From Candidatus Bipolaricaulota bacterium (GTDB taxonomy: Bacteria; Bipolaricaulota; Bipolaricaulia; UBA7950; UBA9294), in NCBI GenBank assembly GCA_030606565.1, contig JAUWGE010000003.1:1-64000 (forward strand): a DNA stretch of 64,000 nucleotides, read 5' to 3'. Positions 13,421 to 48,523 of this stretch are shown piece by piece. The position numbers and the translations under genes were made by a program. Below the pieces are notes generated by a model. It was not told the DNA's origin, ran no database searches, and saw only the letters and a program-made list of their open reading frames with translations. Every line of letters begins with the position of its first letter. The stretch's first letter is position 1.

Positions 13421-13888
13421 GTCTCTCGCAAAGGCGCAAAGACGCAAAGAAGAGCGGAAGACAGGAAAAATGACTGAAAACGAGATAGGAAAGATTGTTG
13501 TTGACGCCGCGGTGTCGGTTCACCGAGATCTCGGCCCTGGTTTACTGGAAACGGTCTATGAGGTGGTGTTAGCCCATGTGCTTAGACAACGTGGCTTGGC
13601 AGTGGAGCGTCAGGTTCCTGTTCCCATCGAATATTGTGGAATTAGGTTCGACGAGGGTTTCCGAGCGGACATCATTGTCGAAGGCAAGGTTATCCTGGAG
13701 CTCAAGTCGGTACAGACGGTAAGCAATGCCCACAAGAAGCAGCTGCTCACGTACCTGCGGCTGACTGGACTCAAGCTTGGGTATTTGCTCAACTTTGGTG
13801 AGGCCCTCATGAAGGACGGAATAACACGAACGGTGAACAAGCTGGATGAAGACCAGTAATCCTTGGCGTCTTAGCGTCTTGGCAAGAG
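13421..13888. repeat. repeat unit whose two arms flank the GxxExxY gene
   Basis: left arm gtctctcgcaaaggcgcaaagacgcaaag (13421-), right arm ccttggcgtcttagcgtcttggcaagaga (to about 13888). Confidence 0.75.
13470..13859 (+). CDS. GxxExxY family protein (PD-(D/E)XK-like)
   Basis: VHRDLGPGLLETVYEVVLAHVLRQRGLAVERQVPVPIEYCG...RADIIVEGKVILELKSV. Confidence 0.93.
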   Translation: MTENEIGKIVVDAAVSVHRDLGPGLLETVYEVVLAHVLRQRGLAVERQVPVPIEYCGIRFDEGFRADIIVEGKVILELKSVQTVSNAHKKQLLTYLRLTGLKLGYLLNFGEALMKDGITRTVNKLDEDQ

Positions 13889-13898
13889 AAAGGCTTCA

Positions 13899-13974
13899 GC
13901 CTCTCGCAGAGACGCAGAGAACGCAGAGAGTGAAAATCTAGAATCCTTGGCGATCTTAGCGTCTTGGCGAGAGA
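13899..13974. repeat. palindromic repeat unit, nearly identical to 12987-13060
   Basis: shared gagaacgcagagagtgaaaatctagaatccttggcgatcttagcgtcttggcgagag. Confidence 0.85.
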
Positions 13975-13988
13975 ACGGGGCTTTTCAC

Positions 13989-14100
13989 GAGAATGGGGGC
14001 TTGGCGGTTGTCGCACAAGAAACCGGGATTCTTCCTGCTTTCCTGCCTTCCTCAGGGAGAGAAGATCTTGATTTACGAGAGCAGGCCAGTTCCGATGCCC
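13989..14100 (+). repeat. approx. 112-bp dispersed repeat, inverted copy of 9441-9553
   Basis: see 9441-9553. Confidence 0.7.
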
Positions 14101-14243
14101 AACCCCTTACCGTACCCGGGGCGTGAGGAACCATTATGAGGAACCTATGCGGAACCCAGGAATGGAGGGATGAGGATAGGACCGGAAGATCAGGAACTGA
14201 CTTCGTGTTCTTGGCGCAGGGACTAGGTTGAGGCGATCCGCTA

Positions 14244-14272
14244 TTGACAAGAAGCCCGGATTCTTATATACT
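14244..14272 (+). promoter_or_regulatory. sigma70-like promoter TTGACA-N17-TATACT
   Basis: TTGACA 14244-14249, 17-nt spacer, TATACT 14267-14272; directly upstream of riboswitch. Confidence 0.8.
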
Positions 14273-14317
14273 GATCGGTGTTTCGAGCATAAGCATATAA
14301 ATAATGGGGTAGATCCT

Positions 14318-14396
14318 GAAAAAGGTAAACCTGCCGGGAGGTAGGGGCACAAAGCCACGGGTCTCACGAGATAGCCGGGCTGCCAGGGTTGGGGGA
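14318..14396 (+). ncRNA. c-di-GMP-I (GEMM) riboswitch aptamer
   Basis: AAAGGUAAACC-UGCC-GGGA-GGUA-GGGGCACAAAGCC-ACGGGUCUCACGAGAUAGCCGGGCUGCC aligns with GEMM-I core (GGCAAACC, GNRA loop, GACGCAAAGCC, GGUAGCcgGGuUGCC). Confidence 0.92.
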
Positions 14397-14449
14397 GGCA
14401 AGAATTAGCGGCTGTAGTGGGGTTGCATGCGGATATTTTTTTAAAAAAT

Positions 14450-14484
14450 GCTCTTCGAGTGCTCGAAGGGCGTTTTGCTTTTTC
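14450..14484 (+). terminator. Rho-independent terminator, probable riboswitch expression platform
   Basis: GCTCTTCGAG-TG-CTCGAAGGGC followed by gttttgctttttc. Confidence 0.85.
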
Positions 14485-14553
14485 AGGAACGCTCTAAGGA
14501 ACCGCTGCAGGAAGGTGAGATTGCAGACGCATAAGCAAAAAGGGAGGGCGAGA

Positions 14554-15867
14554 ATGCCAAGGAGGGCCTTCTGCGGGATCTGGTCCTTGATAGTGCTGGT
14601 GATCGTCGTGGGGAGTACGGCATTCGCGCAGCTCTCTGGACGGTTCGGCTTGGACATCGTGGCCCGACGGATCCCGACTACATTAACAGGCGAGATCAAG
14701 CTAGATACGCCGAGTGAGTTTGTCATGCTGGAGTTCGCTATTGCATCGAACCTCATCCTGGACGTCAACTTTGGCTTCGCTCACTTGAACATAGATGCAG
14801 TGGTGAACACGGCTGGGCCAGAGCATCTGGTGATCAAGACCCCCATGGATTTCGGCTGCCTTCCCATCTACGAAATCACGCTCGACAAGCTAAGCATCGT
14901 TCCGGAGATGTGGTTTGCGGTTCCGTTCGAGGCAGTCACGGATGTGAACAACCTTCCGAACTCAGTGATCATCCCACCGGCGGACGTCTTGTTTGTCAAG
15001 GCTCGTGTAACATTTTCAACTTCTATGGCTGGATTCAACATAAAGCACCTCGCGATGCTTGAAGACATAAACTTCCCCAATCCGGGATCGTCGTTTAAGC
15101 CGTTGTACTATCCAGTGCAGTCTCAGAGCTTCGCCATTGGGGGATTAACATCCGCAAGCTGGCGTGCGCAAGTGGGTGTATCGGTGAATGCGAGCCTCGG
15201 AATAAACGCGTCCTCATCAGGCAAGAGTATCAAGGGCTACTCTGCTACTGGCAGTGTGGTGCCTGACAACTACTTCGCCCGGTTTGGCATAAGCGGCATC
15301 AAGCTGGCCGATATCAACCTCTACGGCACGAGCTTCCAGTCGGTGATGCTAGGCACGAGCTTCACTTTCACAAAGACGGCCACACAGACGGCTGGAACGA
15401 CGAGTTTCAACACCACGATCAACCTCTCAGGCAAACTGTGGGATAAGGCGAGCATCAGCGGCTCAGTAACACTTGCTCCGTTCCCGCCCAAGTTCGGTGG
15501 GGTCACGATCTCGTTTAGCATGGAGCCGTTCCGGTTTGCGTTTGCTCTGGACACCATGGAGCTTAAATCGATGTCGTTTAGCTTCAGTACGGGGCTCAAC
15601 CTGGGGGCGATGACAGGGAGGTTCTCCACCACAGCCTCCGGTCTGGAGAGAGGAATGACCGGGCTGTCGATGCGGCTGTCGCTATCGCAGGGGATCTTCT
15701 CCGCAGGGACGAATGTGTCGTTTGCAGAGAGAGCGGAGAAGTTCGGGTTTGCCAGCCTGGGAAGCACGCTGACCTTCCGGCTCAGTCCCGCTGTGGTAAC
15801 AGTGCGAGCGACATTCGGTAGGTACGGGTTAACGCGCGCGGCGGTCACCGCCGGCGTGGTGTTTTAG
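14554..15867 (+). CDS. secreted, candidate outer-membrane beta-structured protein under riboswitch control
   Basis: signal peptide after ATG 14554; alternating beta-rich sequence with internal similarities (FSMEPFRFAFALDTMELKSMSFSFSTG...). Confidence 0.7.
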   Translation: MPRRAFCGIWSLIVLVIVVGSTAFAQLSGRFGLDIVARRIPTTLTGEIKLDTPSEFVMLEFAIASNLILDVNFGFAHLNIDAVVNTAGPEHLVIKTPMDFGCLPIYEITLDKLSIVPEMWFAVPFEAVTDVNNLPNSVIIPPADVLFVKARVTFSTSMAGFNIKHLAMLEDINFPNPGSSFKPLYYPVQSQSFAIGGLTSASWRAQVGVSVNASLGINASSSGKSIKGYSATGSVVPDNYFARFGISGIKLADINLYGTSFQSVMLGTSFTFTKTATQTAGTTSFNTTINLSGKLWDKASISGSVTLAPFPPKFGGVTISFSMEPFRFAFALDTMELKSMSFSFSTGLNLGAMTGRFSTTASGLERGMTGLSMRLSLSQGIFSAGTNVSFAERAEKFGFASLGSTLTFRLSPAVVTVRATFGRYGLTRAAVTAGVVF

Positions 15868-15871
15868 GGGG

Positions 15872-18800
15872 ATGGAAAAGATGACAGATCATGCGATGCG
15901 TACCGCTTTGGAGGTGGGAGGTATGACGATAGGGTCCAGGAGTAGAGTTGTTATCGCAACGATTCTCGCGCTCGTGATAGCACTTATGGCGGGCTCCTTC
16001 GGTGTAATGGCGTGCAACACAGAGATCAACATTTCCTATTCCGCCTCCCCCGTCATAGGCCAGGCAGTGACCATAACGTGGGAGCTTAACACTCAGACCT
16101 GTCCTAGCGTGACGTTCGCCGGAACCCTGACCCGATGCGTCAAATCTCCCGGCTCGGGCACCTGCGACGTCCTAACTGGCGGCGTTGAGACGAGCGGAGG
16201 GAAACCGTTCATTTCAGAGTACCTATTCTCCCCCTCAACAGCAGGAATCTACACAATTGAAGGATCCTATGAGGGCTGCACAACCTGCGATCCACAGCTC
16301 AACTCCTGCAGCGCAGGTCCGGTCAGCATGCCGGTGAGCCAGGCCGGCACGACGACGTCGGTGGTCTCCGACAATAACCCTTCGACAACCGGTGAGAACG
16401 TAACGTTCACCGCAACGGTTACGTCTTCCTGGGTTGGCGGGCCAGCAATTGGCGGGACGGTGACCTTCTCCGCTAACAAGGCCGTCACTTGGGTAGGGTC
16501 AAACACTGTCGCCGTGAGTGGCGGAACGGCCAGCGTGCAGGCATCTTTTGACGCCAACGACAGCCCGATAACGATCACCGCCACCTATGATGAGACGAGT
16601 GATGCCAATTACGCTACAAGCAGCGGTAACCTCTCGCAAATAGTGCTCACGGGCACGACAACCGTGGTAACTTCCAACAAGAACACAATCTCCACCTATC
16701 CCGGCACCTGTGAGAACGTGATGTTCACTGCAACCGTTACGCCTGTAGCAGGTTCTGGCACACCCACGGGAACAGTGGACTTCTACAAAGGCGGGACTAC
16801 TCTTATTGGATCTGGTACGCTCGAGAGCGCGTGGCCCTTTGATGAGGTCTCCATCTCCACCACGTTTTATGCAGTGGAGAGTGGCGTGTCGATCACCGCC
16901 ACCTATAACGGGGACGCCGATTACGCAGGCAGTGACGGCAGCCTCGATCCCGATCAAACAGTGGTCCCTGCGAACACAACAACCTCCATTACCAGTGATG
17001 CCCCCGATCCATCTGTTCTGGGACAACCGTACCTCGTAACGGGAACGGTGATAGGAAGCCATGGGGGTTGCCGTCCCACGACGGGAACCGTCACGGTGAC
17101 AGACGGTCAGGGCAACGGTTGTGCCGGAGACGTAGATCTCAATGGAGACTGGAGCTGCAGCATCACTTCAGACCCGACAACTCCCGCGGTCACATACAAC
17201 CTTACCGCAAGATACAATGGAGAAGACCCAAACTTCGCCGCAAGCGGTTGGTCGGCTTCGGAACTACACACGTACACGAACCCGACGACCCGCACCGAGG
17301 TGATGGGGGCGGACACTCCGTTGATTGTGAACAACACCGCAACATTCACCGTGGTGGTTGTCGATACCTCGGCGATACCTACGATCCCTACTGGAACAGT
17401 AGATTTGTCGGTTTCTCCGTACGGGAAAGGAACTCTGTTGGGGGTAGTAACATCGATCACCCCGACAACCCGCACTCTCGACGCGGCAGGCCGATGCACC
17501 TTCACCTACACTCCGACGAGCGCAGACCCAACGCCGCATGCGGTTACCGCTGTGTACGTGCCCGGCTCCCATGCTGCAAGTACTGGTACCTTTGCTCAAG
17601 AGATCGTGAAGCGCGCTGCCGATATACAGCTCGCGCTCACCCCGACAACTGCCTATATTTACGAGCCGGTCACCCTGCAGATACACGTCGAAGACGATAC
17701 CACCGAGGGGACTCCGGGCAGTCTGGCCGGAGAGCCGGTAACCCTCTCGACGACGAGCGTCACCGGTTGGTTTGATGCTGCTGCTCCAGGGGCGGACTAC
17801 ACTGCCATCCTGAATGCAACCGGTGACTGCACGGTGACCTACACCCCGGGACCGGGGGAAGCAGGCACCACGACGATCACGGCGACGTTCGACGAATCTG
17901 GCGTGTACACGGAAAAGTCCACTTCTGAGAACCTTGTTGTGAACCTGCGTCCCACGGAGACAAGAGTGATCTGTTCGATGGAGACGCTTCTGGTAAACGA
18001 GACAGAATTCGGCTGTACGATCACGGTAAAAGACGTTGCGGGTGTGGGAACGGCCACCGCCCCCGGAGGTAGCATTAGCTCCCTCACGACCGATCTGTCC
18101 GGCACAAGCGCGGTTTACAACTTGTCTGGTCCTACAACACCGTCTGGAACCGACGATTCCAAATGGACGTTCGACTATCTGTGCACCGGCCTCGATGACA
18201 TAGCTGGGTTCGACATCATTCAAGCCGACTATACCGCATCGGACGGAATACATGCCGACAGTGCCGGCGTCTTCGTTCAAGGGATCCAGAGACGGCCGAC
18301 TATTACCACGCTCTCCGGATGTTTCAGCACACCGGACGGCGTCACGTGCACCGCGACCGTTGAGGAGGATTCCGGAAACGCTGGCGTTCCTGTTACTCTC
18401 GAAGGTGATTTTGTGCTTGTAGGTAATCCAGACGAAGATATCACAGGGTGCACTGGTCTTTCCGGAGCATCCGCTAGCTGTGTTGATTTTGACGTGGATT
18501 CGGGTGCTCTGGTCACCAATGTGACCGTGCGGTTCGAGCCGACTGATAACGTTCATCGTCCGTCGATGGCCTCGGAGAATGTTGATCGATCGGACCAGTT
18601 CTCGACGGGAGGCGGCGACGACAGCGACGGCTCCAACTGCGACGATGGCTGCGGAACCGAGGGGGTGAACATCACCGAGATGCTCCAGAACCTCAGGGAG
18701 CTTAACATCGCCGTTTCCGCGATAAAGTTGGGTCTGTCGCAGTACTCGATTCTCCTCAGTCTCTGGCCGGAGCCTATCATAGGTACAGGGACCTTCGTTA

Positions 18801-21800
18801 TCTTTGGTACTACGATTCCGGTTAAAGACATCGCCGCTGCTATAGTCAATCAGGCGCAGATCGCCTTCTCCATTTATCAGATGGTTATCACGACGGACAT
18901 CGACGGCGATGGACTTCCCGATATAGTGGAAAGACACGTCACCGAGACTGAATACAACGATAGGGACAGCGACGATGACGTCATGTCAGACGGGCTTGAG
19001 ATATTGGTCGCAGGCGGCTACTACGGGGGCAGCCGCCGCCCTGATCCAAATGATCCAGACAGTGATAACGACGGTCTGACGGATGGCGAGGAATATACTA
19101 CCTACGACACAAACCCGTGCGTCGCGGACACGGATTGCGATGGCGTAAACGACGGCGATGAAGTGGACACGTGGGGCTGTAGCGATCCCCGCGACCACGC
19201 CGACCCTCTGGTGGTTGACACCGATGGGGACGGCCTGGACGACGACATCGAGTTCAGTGCCTACCCGTGTGCCTCTTGCCCGTACGTCAACGACGACGAT
19301 TCGGACGATGACGGATTGCAGGACGGCTACGAGGACGCAAACCAGGATGGGACGATCACGAACACCATCGGGGACAACACATCGCACGGAAGCGGGGAGA
19401 CGGACTTCTGCAACTCTGATACTGACGCCGACGGTCTCCTTGATGGAGAAGAGGAGGGCCTGTTCGGCCTGGAGGTCACGCCTGAGGGAGTCTCCGGGAC
19501 GGTCGGAAGTCCGGGAGGTACGATATCACTAGGAGGCTCTGTCACGACGGTCCCCGCACTAGACAGCGACATGGACAACGACTACCTCACCGATTACGAA
19601 GAGGTCAACATCTATCAGACCGATCCCATGGACGCCGATACCGACGACGATACGTTGATGGATAGCATCGAGGTGGCGACGTGGGATGCAACCATTGCTG
19701 CGCGGCTTGTGGCTGCCGGTGTATCGCTGCCGTTTGGTGGATCGACCACGGCCTCTTCCGATGCCCGCGATCACTCGAATCCACGGATGCAGGACACCGA
19801 CGGCGACGGTCTGACCGACGACCTCGAGATCGCATATGGTTGTACGTATGTGAACGACGACGATTCCGATGACGATGGCCTGCAGGACGGCTGGGAGGAT
19901 CGTAATCGTGACGGCGATTGGGACTACACGACGCTGGACAAAACCAGCACCGGTCACGGCATCGGCGAGACGGATCCCTGTGATCCGGACACCGACGATG
20001 ACGGTCTCCTCGATGGAGAAGAGGAGGGCCTGTTCGGCCAAGGATTGGTTGGCGTGGTTCACCCGCTCGGCTCGACGAACCTTGATCCGGCGCTCGACGA
20101 CGACTCGGATAATGACGGGCTGTCGGACTACGAAGAGGTCAACATCACGGGCACAAACCCGCTCCATTGGGACACCGATGGAGACGGGATTTCCGATGCC
20201 GATGAGTTGATTACCACCGGAGGGATATGGCCGAAGCGGACGTTCATTCAGGAATCGGACCCGCTCGATCCGGATACAGACGATGACTACCTTTCAGATG
20301 GAATCGAGTGGACGGTCGGCCACACCTACGCGGGGACCGGTCTTGGAGATTCGACGGCCTCGAGCGTCTTTCGCAAGCTCGGCGGGATCCCTGACACGAT
20401 CTGTCCATACGTCAACGATGATGACTCCGACGACGACGGCCTCCAGGACGGGACGGAGGATGCCAATCACGACGGAACGTGGGGAGTTAACGGTGCGGGG
20501 ATCACGGTTGGGTCGTTCTCAACTCAGGCAACCATGGACGGGACCGTTACCTACTGGGAATGCGATCTCTGCAACCCGGACACGGATGGGGACGGCTTGC
20601 TGGACGGCGAAGAGGTTGCTTTGATCGGCGGCGGGCCGATCCTGGGTCGGCCAAGACCTGTACCGGGTTTCTATACCGTCACCCCGGAGGAGGTCTCCAC
20701 GGTATTGCCACTGGGGACAGGTCCCGCAGGGTCTCCTCCAGGAACTGGGAACAGCCAACTTGGTCCGTATACCTTCATACCCATAGCTGGCGTCCTTATG
20801 ACTGGGGACAAGACCGTCCCGGCGCTCGACGTGGATTCCGATAACGATGGTCTGTCCGACTACGAAGAGGTGAACATCACCGGGACCGATCCGCTCGATC
20901 AAGACTCTGACAATGACACGTTGATGGATTCAGACGAGCTGATTGCCACCGGTGGGACAGTGGATATACCGGGAAATCCTGGGACCGGGCCGCGACGGAC
21001 GTTCGACCAAGAGAGTGACCCACTCGACATCAACACCGATGACGATCACCTGTTCGATCCGCAGGAGTACGCAGGAAGCAGCCTCAGTGGGAAGTCGGGT
21101 GGATTGAGCACTCTCTTGGGTGTGGATCGCGACACGGATTGCCCGTTCGTCAACGACGATGACTCTGATGACGATGGACTTCAGGATGGTTTGGTTGTCT
21201 ACGTTGACCCGCAGACGAGCCTTGGCTATGACTATTCCTATACCCACTACGAAGACTTCGTGGATATTCAGGCGTACAGCGGCCTCGGCGTCGACTCGCC
21301 GGGCTACGCCAAGGTCACGGTTAGTCCCGCAACGGACTACGAGCAATACGACGACACGCTCCAGAACGTGTGCGACTGTGACTCCGACGGCGACGGCCTC
21401 TACGACGGTGAAGAAGTGGCGATCGGGACAGATCCCGACGACTGGGACACCGACGACGATGGCCGCAGTGACTGGCACGAGCACACTGGTGGTGGACCGA
21501 TCCCGACCGACCCGTTCGATCCGGACACCGACGATGACGGCCTGACCGACTCGGTGGAAGTTTTCGGACTCAACCCGACCAATCCAGTCAACGCCGATAC
21601 CGACGGCGATGGCCTGTGCGACGGCGGAACGGGAACCCCGTGGATGATAAGCGGAGATGCTCGCGTCATCGTAAACCCAATCTGCAAGTCCTGCAGCGAC
21701 CCTGGGCTGACATCGTGTGGTACCCTCACACGTGGTGGGAGCGTCGACGGAATCGGGGATCACCCGAATCCACACGGCTACGGCGAGGACAAGGACGGAG

Positions 21801-22993
21801 ACGGGACGTGGGACGGCACAATCGGGCAGCTCTGGCAGTCTGGAGACCCAGGAACGCCTGAGACCGATCCTAATCAATACGATACCGACGGCGATGCGCT
21901 TGCCGACGGCATCGAGGTCCTTGGCTTCTCGACCTCTCGTCAGGGCTGGATCCCAACGACCGATCTCTTCGGTCGCACGATAAACGTGACCTATCCCGCA
22001 TGCGGATGCTTGGAGCCTCTCATCGCCGATACGGATGGAGATGGCCTTGAGGACGGCTACGAGGATAACAACCACGACGGGAACTTCGACTTCTTGCCGA
22101 GTGACTTCGACTACGCGCCCGATCCCCTCCCCGGACCTCCCCAGCCAAACCCGGCGGAGACCAACCCCTGCGATCCCGATACAGACGACGACGATCTGAC
22201 CGACTACGAGGAGCGGTACCAGTCACAGGTTTTCGTGCACTATGATGACCTTACGCGACCATTCAACCCGACCAACCCTCTCGACCACGACACCGACAAC
22301 GATTGGCTGCTCGACGGGTTCGAGGTTAAGTATGTGTGTGTCGCCGTCACTTACTCGCAACTGGACAACGACGGAGATGGCCTCATCGATGAAGACCCGA
22401 TCGATGGGCTCGACAACGACGGGGACGGCCTGATCGACGAGGACCCGGTTGACTTCTTCGTCCGCTTCGTGCCGATGCTCGATCCGACGTGCCGCGATTC
22501 CGACTCTGACGGGTGGATCGATGGATTGGATGACGATCCATGCAACTCCGAGTTGATTCCCCTGCTTCAGCCGGTGCAGATCGAGCCGATAGATAGTGAT
22601 GGTGACGGCTTTGCCGACGCTGACGAGATTGTTGCGGGAACACACCCCAACGATCCAGAGGACTACCCCGTTGCTTACTATGCGATCGACCTTGACTTCG
22701 ATCAGGCGATTGACGACCGGCTGTGGCTGGAGAGAAGTGCTTGGAGCGGCATCGCCAACTCAGTTGTGATCGATATCGACTGTAACGTGCTGATCGATGC
22801 GCGTGTGCAGATCGTCGCCCCGCGCGATGTGAAGCAGGGCGACTTCGACGGCGACGGTGCCGAGGACGACTACCGCTACGTTGTCGAGTACGCATTCAGC
22901 AACTACCGTGTGCTGCAACCGCGGATCGTGTTGACGATCTACGACTACAACGGCGATCTTGTCATCGATCACGCGGAAGTAGTGAGAAAGTAA
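15872..22993 (+). CDS. giant (2373 aa) secreted surface protein: N-terminal Ig-like repeats, C-terminal DxDxDG calcium-binding repeat region
   Basis: signal sequence; repeated TTTVVTSNxxP...GTVTFY..YNGDADYAGS Ig-like units; many DTDGDGLxDGEE / NDDDSDDDGLQDG repeats. Confidence 0.92.
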   Translation: MEKMTDHAMRTALEVGGMTIGSRSRVVIATILALVIALMAGSFGVMACNTEINISYSASPVIGQAVTITWELNTQTCPSVTFAGTLTRCVKSPGSGTCDVLTGGVETSGGKPFISEYLFSPSTAGIYTIEGSYEGCTTCDPQLNSCSAGPVSMPVSQAGTTTSVVSDNNPSTTGENVTFTATVTSSWVGGPAIGGTVTFSANKAVTWVGSNTVAVSGGTASVQASFDANDSPITITATYDETSDANYATSSGNLSQIVLTGTTTVVTSNKNTISTYPGTCENVMFTATVTPVAGSGTPTGTVDFYKGGTTLIGSGTLESAWPFDEVSISTTFYAVESGVSITATYNGDADYAGSDGSLDPDQTVVPANTTTSITSDAPDPSVLGQPYLVTGTVIGSHGGCRPTTGTVTVTDGQGNGCAGDVDLNGDWSCSITSDPTTPAVTYNLTARYNGEDPNFAASGWSASELHTYTNPTTRTEVMGADTPLIVNNTATFTVVVVDTSAIPTIPTGTVDLSVSPYGKGTLLGVVTSITPTTRTLDAAGRCTFTYTPTSADPTPHAVTAVYVPGSHAASTGTFAQEIVKRAADIQLALTPTTAYIYEPVTLQIHVEDDTTEGTPGSLAGEPVTLSTTSVTGWFDAAAPGADYTAILNATGDCTVTYTPGPGEAGTTTITATFDESGVYTEKSTSENLVVNLRPTETRVICSMETLLVNETEFGCTITVKDVAGVGTATAPGGSISSLTTDLSGTSAVYNLSGPTTPSGTDDSKWTFDYLCTGLDDIAGFDIIQADYTASDGIHADSAGVFVQGIQRRPTITTLSGCFSTPDGVTCTATVEEDSGNAGVPVTLEGDFVLVGNPDEDITGCTGLSGASASCVDFDVDSGALVTNVTVRFEPTDNVHRPSMASENVDRSDQFSTGGGDDSDGSNCDDGCGTEGVNITEMLQNLRELNIAVSAIKLGLSQYSILLSLWPEPIIGTGTFVIFGTTIPVKDIAAAIVNQAQIAFSIYQMVITTDIDGDGLPDIVERHVTETEYNDRDSDDDVMSDGLEILVAGGYYGGSRRPDPNDPDSDNDGLTDGEEYTTYDTNPCVADTDCDGVNDGDEVDTWGCSDPRDHADPLVVDTDGDGLDDDIEFSAYPCASCPYVNDDDSDDDGLQDGYEDANQDGTITNTIGDNTSHGSGETDFCNSDTDADGLLDGEEEGLFGLEVTPEGVSGTVGSPGGTISLGGSVTTVPALDSDMDNDYLTDYEEVNIYQTDPMDADTDDDTLMDSIEVATWDATIAARLVAAGVSLPFGGSTTASSDARDHSNPRMQDTDGDGLTDDLEIAYGCTYVNDDDSDDDGLQDGWEDRNRDGDWDYTTLDKTSTGHGIGETDPCDPDTDDDGLLDGEEEGLFGQGLVGVVHPLGSTNLDPALDDDSDNDGLSDYEEVNITGTNPLHWDTDGDGISDADELITTGGIWPKRTFIQESDPLDPDTDDDYLSDGIEWTVGHTYAGTGLGDSTASSVFRKLGGIPDTICPYVNDDDSDDDGLQDGTEDANHDGTWGVNGAGITVGSFSTQATMDGTVTYWECDLCNPDTDGDGLLDGEEVALIGGGPILGRPRPVPGFYTVTPEEVSTVLPLGTGPAGSPPGTGNSQLGPYTFIPIAGVLMTGDKTVPALDVDSDNDGLSDYEEVNITGTDPLDQDSDNDTLMDSDELIATGGTVDIPGNPGTGPRRTFDQESDPLDINTDDDHLFDPQEYAGSSLSGKSGGLSTLLGVDRDTDCPFVNDDDSDDDGLQDGLVVYVDPQTSLGYDYSYTHYEDFVDIQAYSGLGVDSPGYAKVTVSPATDYEQYDDTLQNVCDCDSDGDGLYDGEEVAIGTDPDDWDTDDDGRSDWHEHTGGGPIPTDPFDPDTDDDGLTDSVEVFGLNPTNPVNADTDGDGLCDGGTGTPWMISGDARVIVNPICKSCSDPGLTSCGTLTRGGSVDGIGDHPNPHGYGEDKDGDGTWDGTIGQLWQSGDPGTPETDPNQYDTDGDALADGIEVLGFSTSRQGWIPTTDLFGRTINVTYPACGCLEPLIADTDGDGLEDGYEDNNHDGNFDFLPSDFDYAPDPLPGPPQPNPAETNPCDPDTDDDDLTDYEERYQSQVFVHYDDLTRPFNPTNPLDHDTDNDWLLDGFEVKYVCVAVTYSQLDNDGDGLIDEDPIDGLDNDGDGLIDEDPVDFFVRFVPMLDPTCRDSDSDGWIDGLDDDPCNSELIPLLQPVQIEPIDSDGDGFADADEIVAGTHPNDPEDYPVAYYAIDLDFDQAIDDRLWLERSAWSGIANSVVIDIDCNVLIDARVQIVAPRDVKQGDFDGDGAEDDYRYVVEYAFSNYRVLQPRIVLTIYDYNGDLVIDHAEVVRK

Positions 22994-23041
22994 GGCTTTT
23001 CCAAGCCGAGGCAACTCACAGAAAAGCGAGAAAAAGGCAGA

Positions 23042-23210
23042 TCTCTCGCAGAGACCTGCCTGCCGTTATGTTCTGACAGGCAGGCGCAAAGAACAGCGGA
23101 AGACAGGGCCTGAGAAGCGAAGTGTGGGACAAACCAAGAACAAGAGTGATGTTGATCTGTACCCCTTGGCGATCTTTGCGGCTTGAGCGAGCATAGCGAG
23201 CGGGCGAGAG
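23042..23210. repeat. ctctcgcagagac-family palindromic unit with a nested mini-palindrome
   Basis: ctctcgcagagac ... ccttggcgatctttgcggcttgagcgag..cgggcgagag. Confidence 0.75.
23054..23083. repeat. CCTGCCTG...CAGGCAGG mini-palindrome nested in the larger repeat
   Basis: cctgcctgccgttatgttctgacaggcagg between gaga and cgcaaag of the host repeat arm. Confidence 0.7.
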
Positions 23211-23220
23211 AAAAAAGCTT

Positions 23221-23340
23221 GTGCCTCTCGCAAAGACGCCGAGAACGCAAAGGAAAGCGTTACATAGGGGAAAGAACTAGAACCGAAGGTATCTCTTAGC
23301 GACCTTTGCGGCTTGAGTGAGTGACACGAACGGGCGAGAG
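23221..23340. repeat. ctctcgcaaagacgc-family palindromic unit
   Basis: gcctctcgcaaagacgccgagaacgcaaag ... gacctttgcggcttgagtgag..cgggcgagag. Confidence 0.75.
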
Positions 23341-23783
23341 AAGAAGTTTCAACCCATACATTTCTTTTTCCCACCATCTGTTGGATTTCTCATGGCTTCA
23401 TGGCTTCCTTATAAAATTGCAAATAAACATCGGCTTTAAGACTACCCACGTGAAACAGCGAGGAACCGTTTAACAACGTAGTGAGCACTGCGACACCTTT
23501 GTTCTCTCTGGCACAGCCGCAAGTGCTGTCAACGCGACTCAAAAAGCATGATCTGACCTCGATTTTCACGTTCAGAGATGTCCCCGGAATTCTATTACTC
23601 CCGATTACTCCATGTTGGGCGCCACAGGATACATAAAATTTGCGTCATTGCCCAGCAGCGGGTATACTTAGCACTTGTATCCGCTAGCAATTGGTTCGCA
23701 ACGTAGTCCCAAAAGCAAATTGCAAAAAAAAAATATCGAGCTGAGAGTGCGACTTGGCTCAACGGAGCCAAGGAGTGTTTTTA

Positions 23784-46669: not shown

Positions 46670-48523
46670 GTGATGCGAAAGAAAACAGCGGATGAAGGAA
46701 GGCAAGATAAAGGGATGAATGACCAATTGAAACAGGAACTGGAATGGCTGCGTCAGCGCGTAGCAGAACTCGAGCAAGCCAAGAACGAGTGGGAGCAAGT
46801 GAAGGAAGCGCTGCGGGAGAGCGAGGAACGACTCCGGACTATCTACGAGACGGCCCAAGACTCCATTTTCATCAAGGATCGCACTCTAAAATACACCCGG
46901 GTTAACCCGGCCATGGAGAAGCTTTTTGGCCTCCCTGCATCAAAACTGGTCGGACTGACGGATGACGACCTTTTCGGGAAGGAAGCGGGGGCGCACATCA
47001 GGGAGATGGATTCTAGGGTCCTTAAAGGCGAGATCGTCGAGGAGGAACACACCAAGCCCGTGAAAGGAGTTCCGACCACGTTCCACATCATCAAGGTGCC
47101 GATGCGCGACAATTCCGGTGAGATCATCGGACTCTGTGGAATTGCACGAGACATCACCGTGCGCAAGCGGGCGGAGGAGGCGCTGCGTGAGAGCGAAAAC
47201 CGCTACCGCAACATCTTCGAGTCCACTACTGATGCGCTGCTTATCTTCAATCTGGATGGAGTCATCGTTGCAGCGAACCCCACCGCCTACAAAATGTACG
47301 GCTACCAAGAGGATGAACTAATCGGCCTTCACGCCAAAAAGATCGTACATCCGGGTTACTTTCATGGTTTCTCTAACTTTAGACGGAACGTCAACGAGCA
47401 CGGCCGCTTCTACATTGATTCTATCAACCTCCGCAAGGATGGAACCCCGTTCCACATCGATATGCATGGAACCAGCTTTACTTATCACGGCAAGCAACAC
47501 CTCCTGTCCGTTATTCGCGATGTCACAGAGCGAGTGAAAGCTGAAAATGCACTGCGAGACTCGAAATTGAAGATAGAAAACCTGCATAAGACAGCTCGAC
47601 TCCTGGAAGCATGCGATAGCGAGGAGGAGGTCTATCGATTGACGGTGAAGGCAGCGGAAGAGATCCTCGAGTTGTCCATGTGTACACTGGATGTCGTGGA
47701 AGGGGACAAGTTGGTAGTTAAGGCAACTTCATCCAACTTACCCGCTGAAGCGAGCAAGTCCATTGACCTGGATATAGGGTTAGCCGGGAAGACCTATCGT
47801 ACCGGAAAGACCACCGTCTTTGGCCGCATGGACGAAGTCCCCGGAGCCAGGCCCACACGGGAAGACTTCAAGTCGGGGATCAGCGCTCCCATCGGCGGTA
47901 TCGGGGTGTTCCAGGTGGTATCTACAAAGCAGGATGCTTTCACCGAAGAGGATGCGCGTTTGCTTGAGCTTCTGCTCGGACATACTGCAGAAGCGGTCAA
48001 AAGGATCTGCCTCCAGAACAAGCTCAAGGAGCAGGCCATCCGTGATCCTATGACCGGCGTCTATAATCGTTACTATCTCAACGAGTTGCTTGCACAAGAG
48101 AGTGCTCGCTCCAAGCGGTATGACTGTCCCATCGCCTTCTTAATGATTGACATCGACCGGTTCAAGGAGATCAACGATCGATTTGGGCATCAAATGGGGG
48201 ACCGCGTACTGCGGGAAACAGCCAAACTTCTAGAGGAACAGGTGCGTGACTCGGACATTGTAGTCCGCTACGGAGGAGATGAGTTCTTAATCATTCTCCC
48301 TGAGACCATCAATGAGATAGACGCACTAAAGGAGCGCATCCACAAGGAAGCCGCCTGCCACCGTGAGGTTCTTAAAACGCTGGGCTTTCCGATAACGCTG
48401 TCCATCGGCAGTGCGCATTGGAACCCTGGCGACTCGGACGCTTTGGAAGCAATTCTAGCAGAAGCCGACCGGCGAATGTACAAGGCTAAACGGCGGCAAG
48501 AACAGGGGAATCAGTTAAGATAA
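46670..48523 (+). CDS. PAS-PAS-GAF-GGDEF diguanylate cyclase
   Basis: two PAS/PAC segments, GAF-like region, DPMTGVYNRYYLNELLAQE...RYGGDEFLIILPE. Confidence 0.93.
   Translation: MMRKKTADEGRQDKGMNDQLKQELEWLRQRVAELEQAKNEWEQVKEALRESEERLRTIYETAQDSIFIKDRTLKYTRVNPAMEKLFGLPASKLVGLTDDDLFGKEAGAHIREMDSRVLKGEIVEEEHTKPVKGVPTTFHIIKVPMRDNSGEIIGLCGIARDITVRKRAEEALRESENRYRNIFESTTDALLIFNLDGVIVAANPTAYKMYGYQEDELIGLHAKKIVHPGYFHGFSNFRRNVNEHGRFYIDSINLRKDGTPFHIDMHGTSFTYHGKQHLLSVIRDVTERVKAENALRDSKLKIENLHKTARLLEACDSEEEVYRLTVKAAEEILELSMCTLDVVEGDKLVVKATSSNLPAEASKSIDLDIGLAGKTYRTGKTTVFGRMDEVPGARPTREDFKSGISAPIGGIGVFQVVSTKQDAFTEEDARLLELLLGHTAEAVKRICLQNKLKEQAIRDPMTGVYNRYYLNELLAQESARSKRYDCPIAFLMIDIDRFKEINDRFGHQMGDRVLRETAKLLEEQVRDSDIVVRYGGDEFLIILPETINEIDALKERIHKEAACHREVLKTLGFPITLSIGSAHWNPGDSDALEAILAEADRRMYKAKRRQEQGNQLR

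Follow-up and report, generated by a model that had tools for sequence, protein, structure and literature searches.

A predicted class-I c-di-GMP riboswitch ahead of a barrel gene and a giant repeat-protein gene in the candidate phylum Bipolaricaulota

A compact leader in a genome of the candidate phylum Bipolaricaulota, in which a promoter, a riboswitch aptamer and a terminator follow one another ahead of two genes for secreted proteins, raises the question of whether a second messenger governs the expression of that pair, and by what means. The window, as we term the whole 64,000-nt stretch analysed here, comes from a 1.8-Mb draft genome that is 91% complete. The reading we prefer, to which we assign a probability of roughly 0.8, is that a class-I c-di-GMP riboswitch occupies the leader, between about 14279 and 14553, and controls an operon of a predicted barrel with its giant partner, transcription attenuation being the most likely mechanism. 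The features concerned are as follows.

14244 to 14272, + strand: sigma-70-type promoter, TTGACA-N17-TATACT; 11 of 12 consensus bases, with comparable sites at the equivalent position of five homologous leaders
14312 to 14390, + strand: GEMM-I (c-di-GMP-I) aptamer, P1 included; RF03167 and RF01051 scores, paired changes in four genomes, and G20, A47 and C92
14391 to 14444, + strand: expression-platform linker of 54 nt between P1 and the terminator; equilibrium folding without consistent ligand-dependent refolding
14410 to 14420, + strand: conserved linker motif GGCTGTAGTGG; identical in four genomes and specific to this cassette among 159 loci
14445 to 14483, + strand: intrinsic terminator, a 14-bp stem then GCTTTTT; hairpin folding, homologous hairpins and stem covariation
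14486 to 14510, + strand: candidate post-terminator segment that pairs with the linker motif around the terminator; RNAalifold consensus of three leaders
14554 to 15867, + strand: gene 1, a 437-aa predicted outer-membrane beta-barrel; AlphaFold2 model and Foldseek matches at low TM-score
15872 to 22993, + strand: gene 2, a giant secreted protein of 2373 aa; matches to Big_3_5 (four, Ig-like) and to TSP3_bac (nine)
46670 to 48523, + strand: PAS-PAS-GAF-GGDEF protein outside the cassette, a candidate source of c-di-GMP; domain matches

Judged by its sequence, the RNA is a member of a well-known riboswitch class. The GEMM-I aptamer of the original prediction, for which a search with Rfam RF01051 had been proposed, is recovered above the gathering cut-offs of two covariance models, RF03167 at 14315-14388 (69.4 bits, E=2.4e-14, cut-off 59) and RF01051 over the same aptamer (63.4 bits, cut-off 35), and is the sole Rfam match at gathering threshold within the window. 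Its P1 pairs 14312-14318 with 14384-14390. Like Vc2 of Vibrio cholerae, the type example of RF01051, it displays three stems, a GNRA-type P2 loop and, as read from the structure line of the model and the alignment, canonical residues at Vc2 positions G20, A47 and C92; it differs from that family in its higher score on the sister model RF03167, in its short P3, and in that its ligand is a predicted one. These three residues are named as important in c-di-GMP contact (PMC11218506), and binding of cGAMP has been reported for a G20A mutant (PMC7288161). With all three canonical, the predicted ligand is c-di-GMP. The equivalent of position 20 had been singled out for inspection as the residue separating c-di-GMP from cGAMP preference; it is G, where a cGAMP (GEMM-Ib) riboswitch would have A. 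Among 70 aptamers of the phylum, a sample taken mostly from the top RF01051 matches and thus biased toward canonical residues, G20 is found in 68 (one has A, one C), while A47 and C92 are found in all 70. Two aptamers from relatives (L118:156-241 and L135:157-247) carry A or C, not G, at position 20, and the one with A20 may prefer cGAMP.

RF03167 (c-di-GMP-I-GGC) is the best-scoring family for this aptamer, and sites above its cut-off occur in 86 of 100 genomes of the class; both observations could be taken to mean that the aptamer belongs to this variant class, its preferred ligand being something else than plain c-di-GMP. We consider this quite improbable. The consensus of RF03167 has G at Vc2 position 47, which, to judge from that consensus, would be the middle G of the "GGC" in its name and the residue that defines the family, whereas the window has A at that position, as do all 70 aligned aptamers. 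Because of this A, the GGC label was not adopted and the aptamer is filed under c-di-GMP-I, its higher GGC score being read as overall likeness. The GGDEF protein of the window also argues against the variant class, in that it looks like a plain diguanylate cyclase. The presence of a GGDEF protein at 46670-48523 had been correctly anticipated: it has a PAS-PAS-GAF-GGDEF architecture, with the GGDEF motif and an RxxD I-site, and an Asp at the position where we take cGAMP-making enzymes to have Ser. A domain search of the whole source genome detected two GGDEF proteins and two HD_5 (HD-GYP-type) proteins, and no EAL protein.

The cassette recurs among relatives. Of 100 genomes sampled from the phylum, 30 encode a homologue of gene 1; most of the named relatives with this gene bear the label Candidatus Bipolaricaulota, Bipolaricaulis or Acetothermia, some are listed simply as "bacterium", and a few have other MAG labels, such as Fraserbacteria, Atribacteria or Thermotoga. 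A GEMM-I aptamer lies upstream of the barrel gene in six of 20 homologous loci (G087, G084, G090, G078, G069 and G094); loci L074, L075, L076, L078 and L085, with identical scores, are apparently five of the same genomes under their public names and were counted once. In G087, G084, G090, G078 and G069 the order of promoter-like site, aptamer, terminator and barrel gene is kept, with terminator hairpins at the same place and of different sequence, so that at the sequence level the arrangement is conserved in six genomes, the window's included. G094 has a weaker aptamer (41.6 bits), and no terminator was found there. Over the four genomes compared in detail (the window, G087, G084 and G090), 92.9% of stem cells are paired, and the aptamer and terminator stems together contain 8 pairs changed on both sides, against 4.1 in shuffles, a control weakened by relatedness, and 0-2 when partners were slid, a control that preserves relatedness. 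Conservation of the cassette in five other genomes, together with these paired changes in the closest ones, excludes a chance match.

On the other hand, no aptamer was found at 14 of the 20 homologous barrel loci, within flanks of at most ~1.5 kb; riboswitch control would therefore be a trait of part of the barrel-gene group, and not essential to the system. The absence of an aptamer from most homologous barrel loci, and the lack of an in vivo response of the Bc1 riboswitch to c-di-GMP under the conditions used (PMC11218506), are in keeping with the view that the aptamer is a relic, decayed or unresponsive, which leaves the promoter and terminator by themselves to set expression of the operon. 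That view is very improbable given contact residues that are intact and stems that stay paired, by way of paired changes, in close relatives. At one further locus (L087:4774-4848, - strand) a GEMM-I aptamer is situated just upstream of a barrel-gene homologue on the opposite strand, and would for that reason serve a divergent gene.

In the riboswitch model that we favour, transcription would start just downstream of the promoter at 14244-14272, and the aptamer would fold first and bind c-di-GMP that the GGDEF enzymes of the cell supply; whether the aptamer is bound or free would alter the pairing options of the linker (14391-14444), linker pairing would set how often the terminator (14445-14483) forms, and read-through would yield both proteins. 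The promoter predicted upstream of the aptamer (TTGACA at 14244-14249, a 17-nt spacer, TATACT at 14267-14272) matches 11 of 12 consensus bases; a scan returns 1 site against 0.6 in shuffles, which is weak evidence by the site alone, and promoter-like sites matching 9 to 11 of 12 bases occupy the equivalent position in five homologous leaders. An intrinsic terminator is likewise present, near the predicted 14450-14484 but properly delimited at 14445-14483: a stem of 14 bp (14445-14458 with 14463-14476) with the tail GCTTTTT, at -17.8 kcal/mol. Its 5' arm contains, at 14449-14455, the sequence GCTCTT, invariant in four genomes; it matches the core of boxA antitermination sites, and is here probably just stem sequence.

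The means by which the aptamer would act on this terminator differs from that originally envisaged. P1 and the 5' arm of the terminator had been proposed to be mutually exclusive; because P1 (14312-14318 and 14384-14390) and that arm (14445-14458) have zero bases in common, direct exclusion is ruled out. Of the broader proposal that c-di-GMP controls a surface-protein pair, this part falls, while a riboswitch placed before such a pair stands, on the covariance matches, the canonical residues, the barrel model and the Ig-like and TSP3 repeats. Control of the terminator by the aptamer is something we infer. In equilibrium folding the terminator forms in all four genomes whether the aptamer is enforced or free; in the same run, holding the aptamer folded leads the linker to pair more with the 5' arm of the terminator. 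With a shorter leader, and measured against shuffled linkers, the pairing of the linker is notable in G087 only (2/150), and the linker was rejected as an antiterminator on that comparison; overall, equilibrium folding with shuffled controls revealed no consistent ligand-dependent switch in the four genomes. The leader segment 14283-14291 (TTCGAGCAT) was also rejected as an antiterminator, its complementarity to the terminator arm being broken in G084 and absent in G090. Counting against the favoured reading are the lack of bases shared by P1 and terminator, the presence of the terminator in both modelled states, linker pairing that exceeds shuffled linkers in G087 only, and the 14 of 20 barrel loci without an aptamer.

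A terminator that persists in both computed states would also be expected if control acted mainly on translation or mRNA stability, with the hairpin at 14445-14476 a fixed attenuator unmoved by ligand. The linker motif bears on this. GGCTGTAGTGG (14410-14420) is identical in four genomes and, among 159 loci, occurs in this cassette only; RNAalifold, applied to three leaders, places it in a 15-pair consensus helix with 14486-14510, in which two pairs are changed on both sides and which encloses the terminator. Such a helix favours a fixed attenuator, as does the dual transcription-translation control reported for Bc1, another riboswitch with a long platform (PMC11218506). The enclosing helix is weak against shuffles, with ~3-10% of single-sequence shuffles matching its energy, and is absent in G090, G078 and G069, for which reasons we treat pairing of the motif with sequence beyond the terminator, with the terminator inside the helix, as a lead. 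The retention of aptamer and terminator together in six genomes further counts against a hairpin indifferent to ligand, and we judge control of this kind unlikely.

Returning to attenuation by the riboswitch, the sign of control is similarly inferred: activation of the operon by c-di-GMP is slightly favoured over repression, solely by analogy with the adhesin switch Vc1-gbpA of Vibrio cholerae (PMC4744006). Vc1, like the RNA described here, is a class-I c-di-GMP switch upstream of a surface gene, in that instance one for attachment; c-di-GMP binding and increased expression have been demonstrated for it (PMC4744006), whereas the switch in the window is predicted, and its target would be a barrel and a giant repeat protein. 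A likeness may also be drawn to Bc1 of Bacillus thuringiensis, which likewise joins a c-di-GMP-I aptamer to a long platform with intrinsic termination, but which has two terminators and precedes a chemoreceptor gene (PMC11218506), in place of one terminator and a surface-protein pair.

The first gene of that pair most likely starts at ATG 14554, after the Shine-Dalgarno sequence GGGAGGG, and ends at 15867 (437 aa); an in-frame GTG at 14515 was rejected as a start, being unconserved and followed shortly downstream by stop codons in G087 and G084. Neither Pfam nor NCBIfam yielded a match to its product, nor did a sequence search against solved structures. An AlphaFold2 model built from 16 sequences is all-beta, with more than 20 strands following a signal-peptide-like helix (pLDDT 76, pTM 0.64), and the Foldseek matches listed for it are outer-membrane barrels (ushers, porins, AlgE and TonB-type receptors). 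Because these come at low TM-scores, the fold class is supported and no family is assigned: gene 1, put forward from the start as a candidate outer-membrane protein, is predicted from the model to encode an outer-membrane beta-barrel. The protein has a hydrophobic N-terminal helix, and its last residue is Phe, a common C-terminus among outer-membrane barrels.

Gene 2 (15872-22993) begins after a gap of 4 nt, and its 2373-aa product is, as predicted, a secreted repeat protein, with four Big_3_5 Ig-like domains and nine TSP3_bac matches, repeats that are compatible with, and not diagnostic of, a surface layer or adhesin. Its residues are ~14% Asp, concentrated after residue 1000, and include 26 DxDxDG motifs, a composition that suggests calcium binding; at the DNA level, no tandem repeats reached threshold in 13500-23500. 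Among relatives for which enough sequence is available, most have a long ORF that starts within a few bases of the end of the barrel gene, and of eight such giant ORFs scanned, seven encode Big_3_5 domains, five of them with TSP3 repeats as well. Since relatives keep a giant ORF adjoining the barrel gene, barrel and giant protein would thus constitute a conserved two-gene surface system, in which we presume that the barrel exports or anchors its partner.

The physiology of Bipolaricaulota is little known; the first closed genome came from a digester, and the cells bear bipolar stalks (PMC6092417). Against this background, the distribution of the aptamer is of interest beyond the one locus. Among the 100 genomes sampled from the phylum, 94 contain GEMM-I aptamers, as do all 38 of the better ones; a single genome has up to 16, and none of 14 control genomes has any. 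These are sites that Rfam's own scans would find; in the literature, as far as our partial coverage extends, we found nothing joining a riboswitch with Bipolaricaulota or Acetothermia, and heavy riboswitch use across this little-studied phylum seems to be undescribed. In the source genome there are five such aptamers: besides the one described here, one each precedes a subtilase gene, an ORF of 156 aa, a gene of 110 aa and a secreted operon (DUF11, SdrD_B, PKD). Among 47 first genes scanned after aptamers, chosen by a simple ORF rule under which individual assignments may be wrong, 8 encode subtilases and 6 CitMHS/ArsB-type transporters, while many of the remainder encode small proteins with a hydrophobic N-terminus and without a Pfam family. 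At some sites in the phylum a start codon lies within ~25 nt of the aptamer, which suggests translational control.

The main interest of these findings lies, in our view, in what appears from sequence to be a riboswitch regulon that spans the phylum and in which secreted and envelope proteins are abundant. If the switches work, c-di-GMP would be a general controller of cell-surface content in Bipolaricaulota, and the regulon would provide a list of genes to look at: secreted subtilases, transporters, an operon for surface proteins, and the barrel together with its giant partner. In vitro work on the RNAs is possible without culturing the organism. A more far-reaching proposal, which we regard as rather unlikely, is that c-di-GMP-I riboswitches form a main regulatory layer of the envelope in this phylum, and that the cassette has an unusual platform in which the linker motif pairs beyond the terminator, leaving the terminator in the loop of a long helix, with control at more than one level over a barrel and giant-protein system that has so far been seen in this phylum only.

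Two arrangements elsewhere deserve mention. In a relative of the same family (G095, L111:159-434), a tandem pair of GEMM-I aptamers precedes a gene of 110 aa; a long terminator hairpin takes its 5' arm from the 3' half of the second aptamer, so that this aptamer and the terminator are directly exclusive, and the tandem arrangement is likely an ON switch. On contig C21 of the source genome (L013:6281-14094), ~720 nt separate two GEMM-I aptamers; the first precedes a 110-aa gene, and the second is followed by a hairpin that could hide the Shine-Dalgarno sequence of the secreted operon noted above. The 110-aa protein (L013:6426-6758 and L111:468-797) has no Pfam match, and may resemble an MshEN-type c-di-GMP-binding domain.
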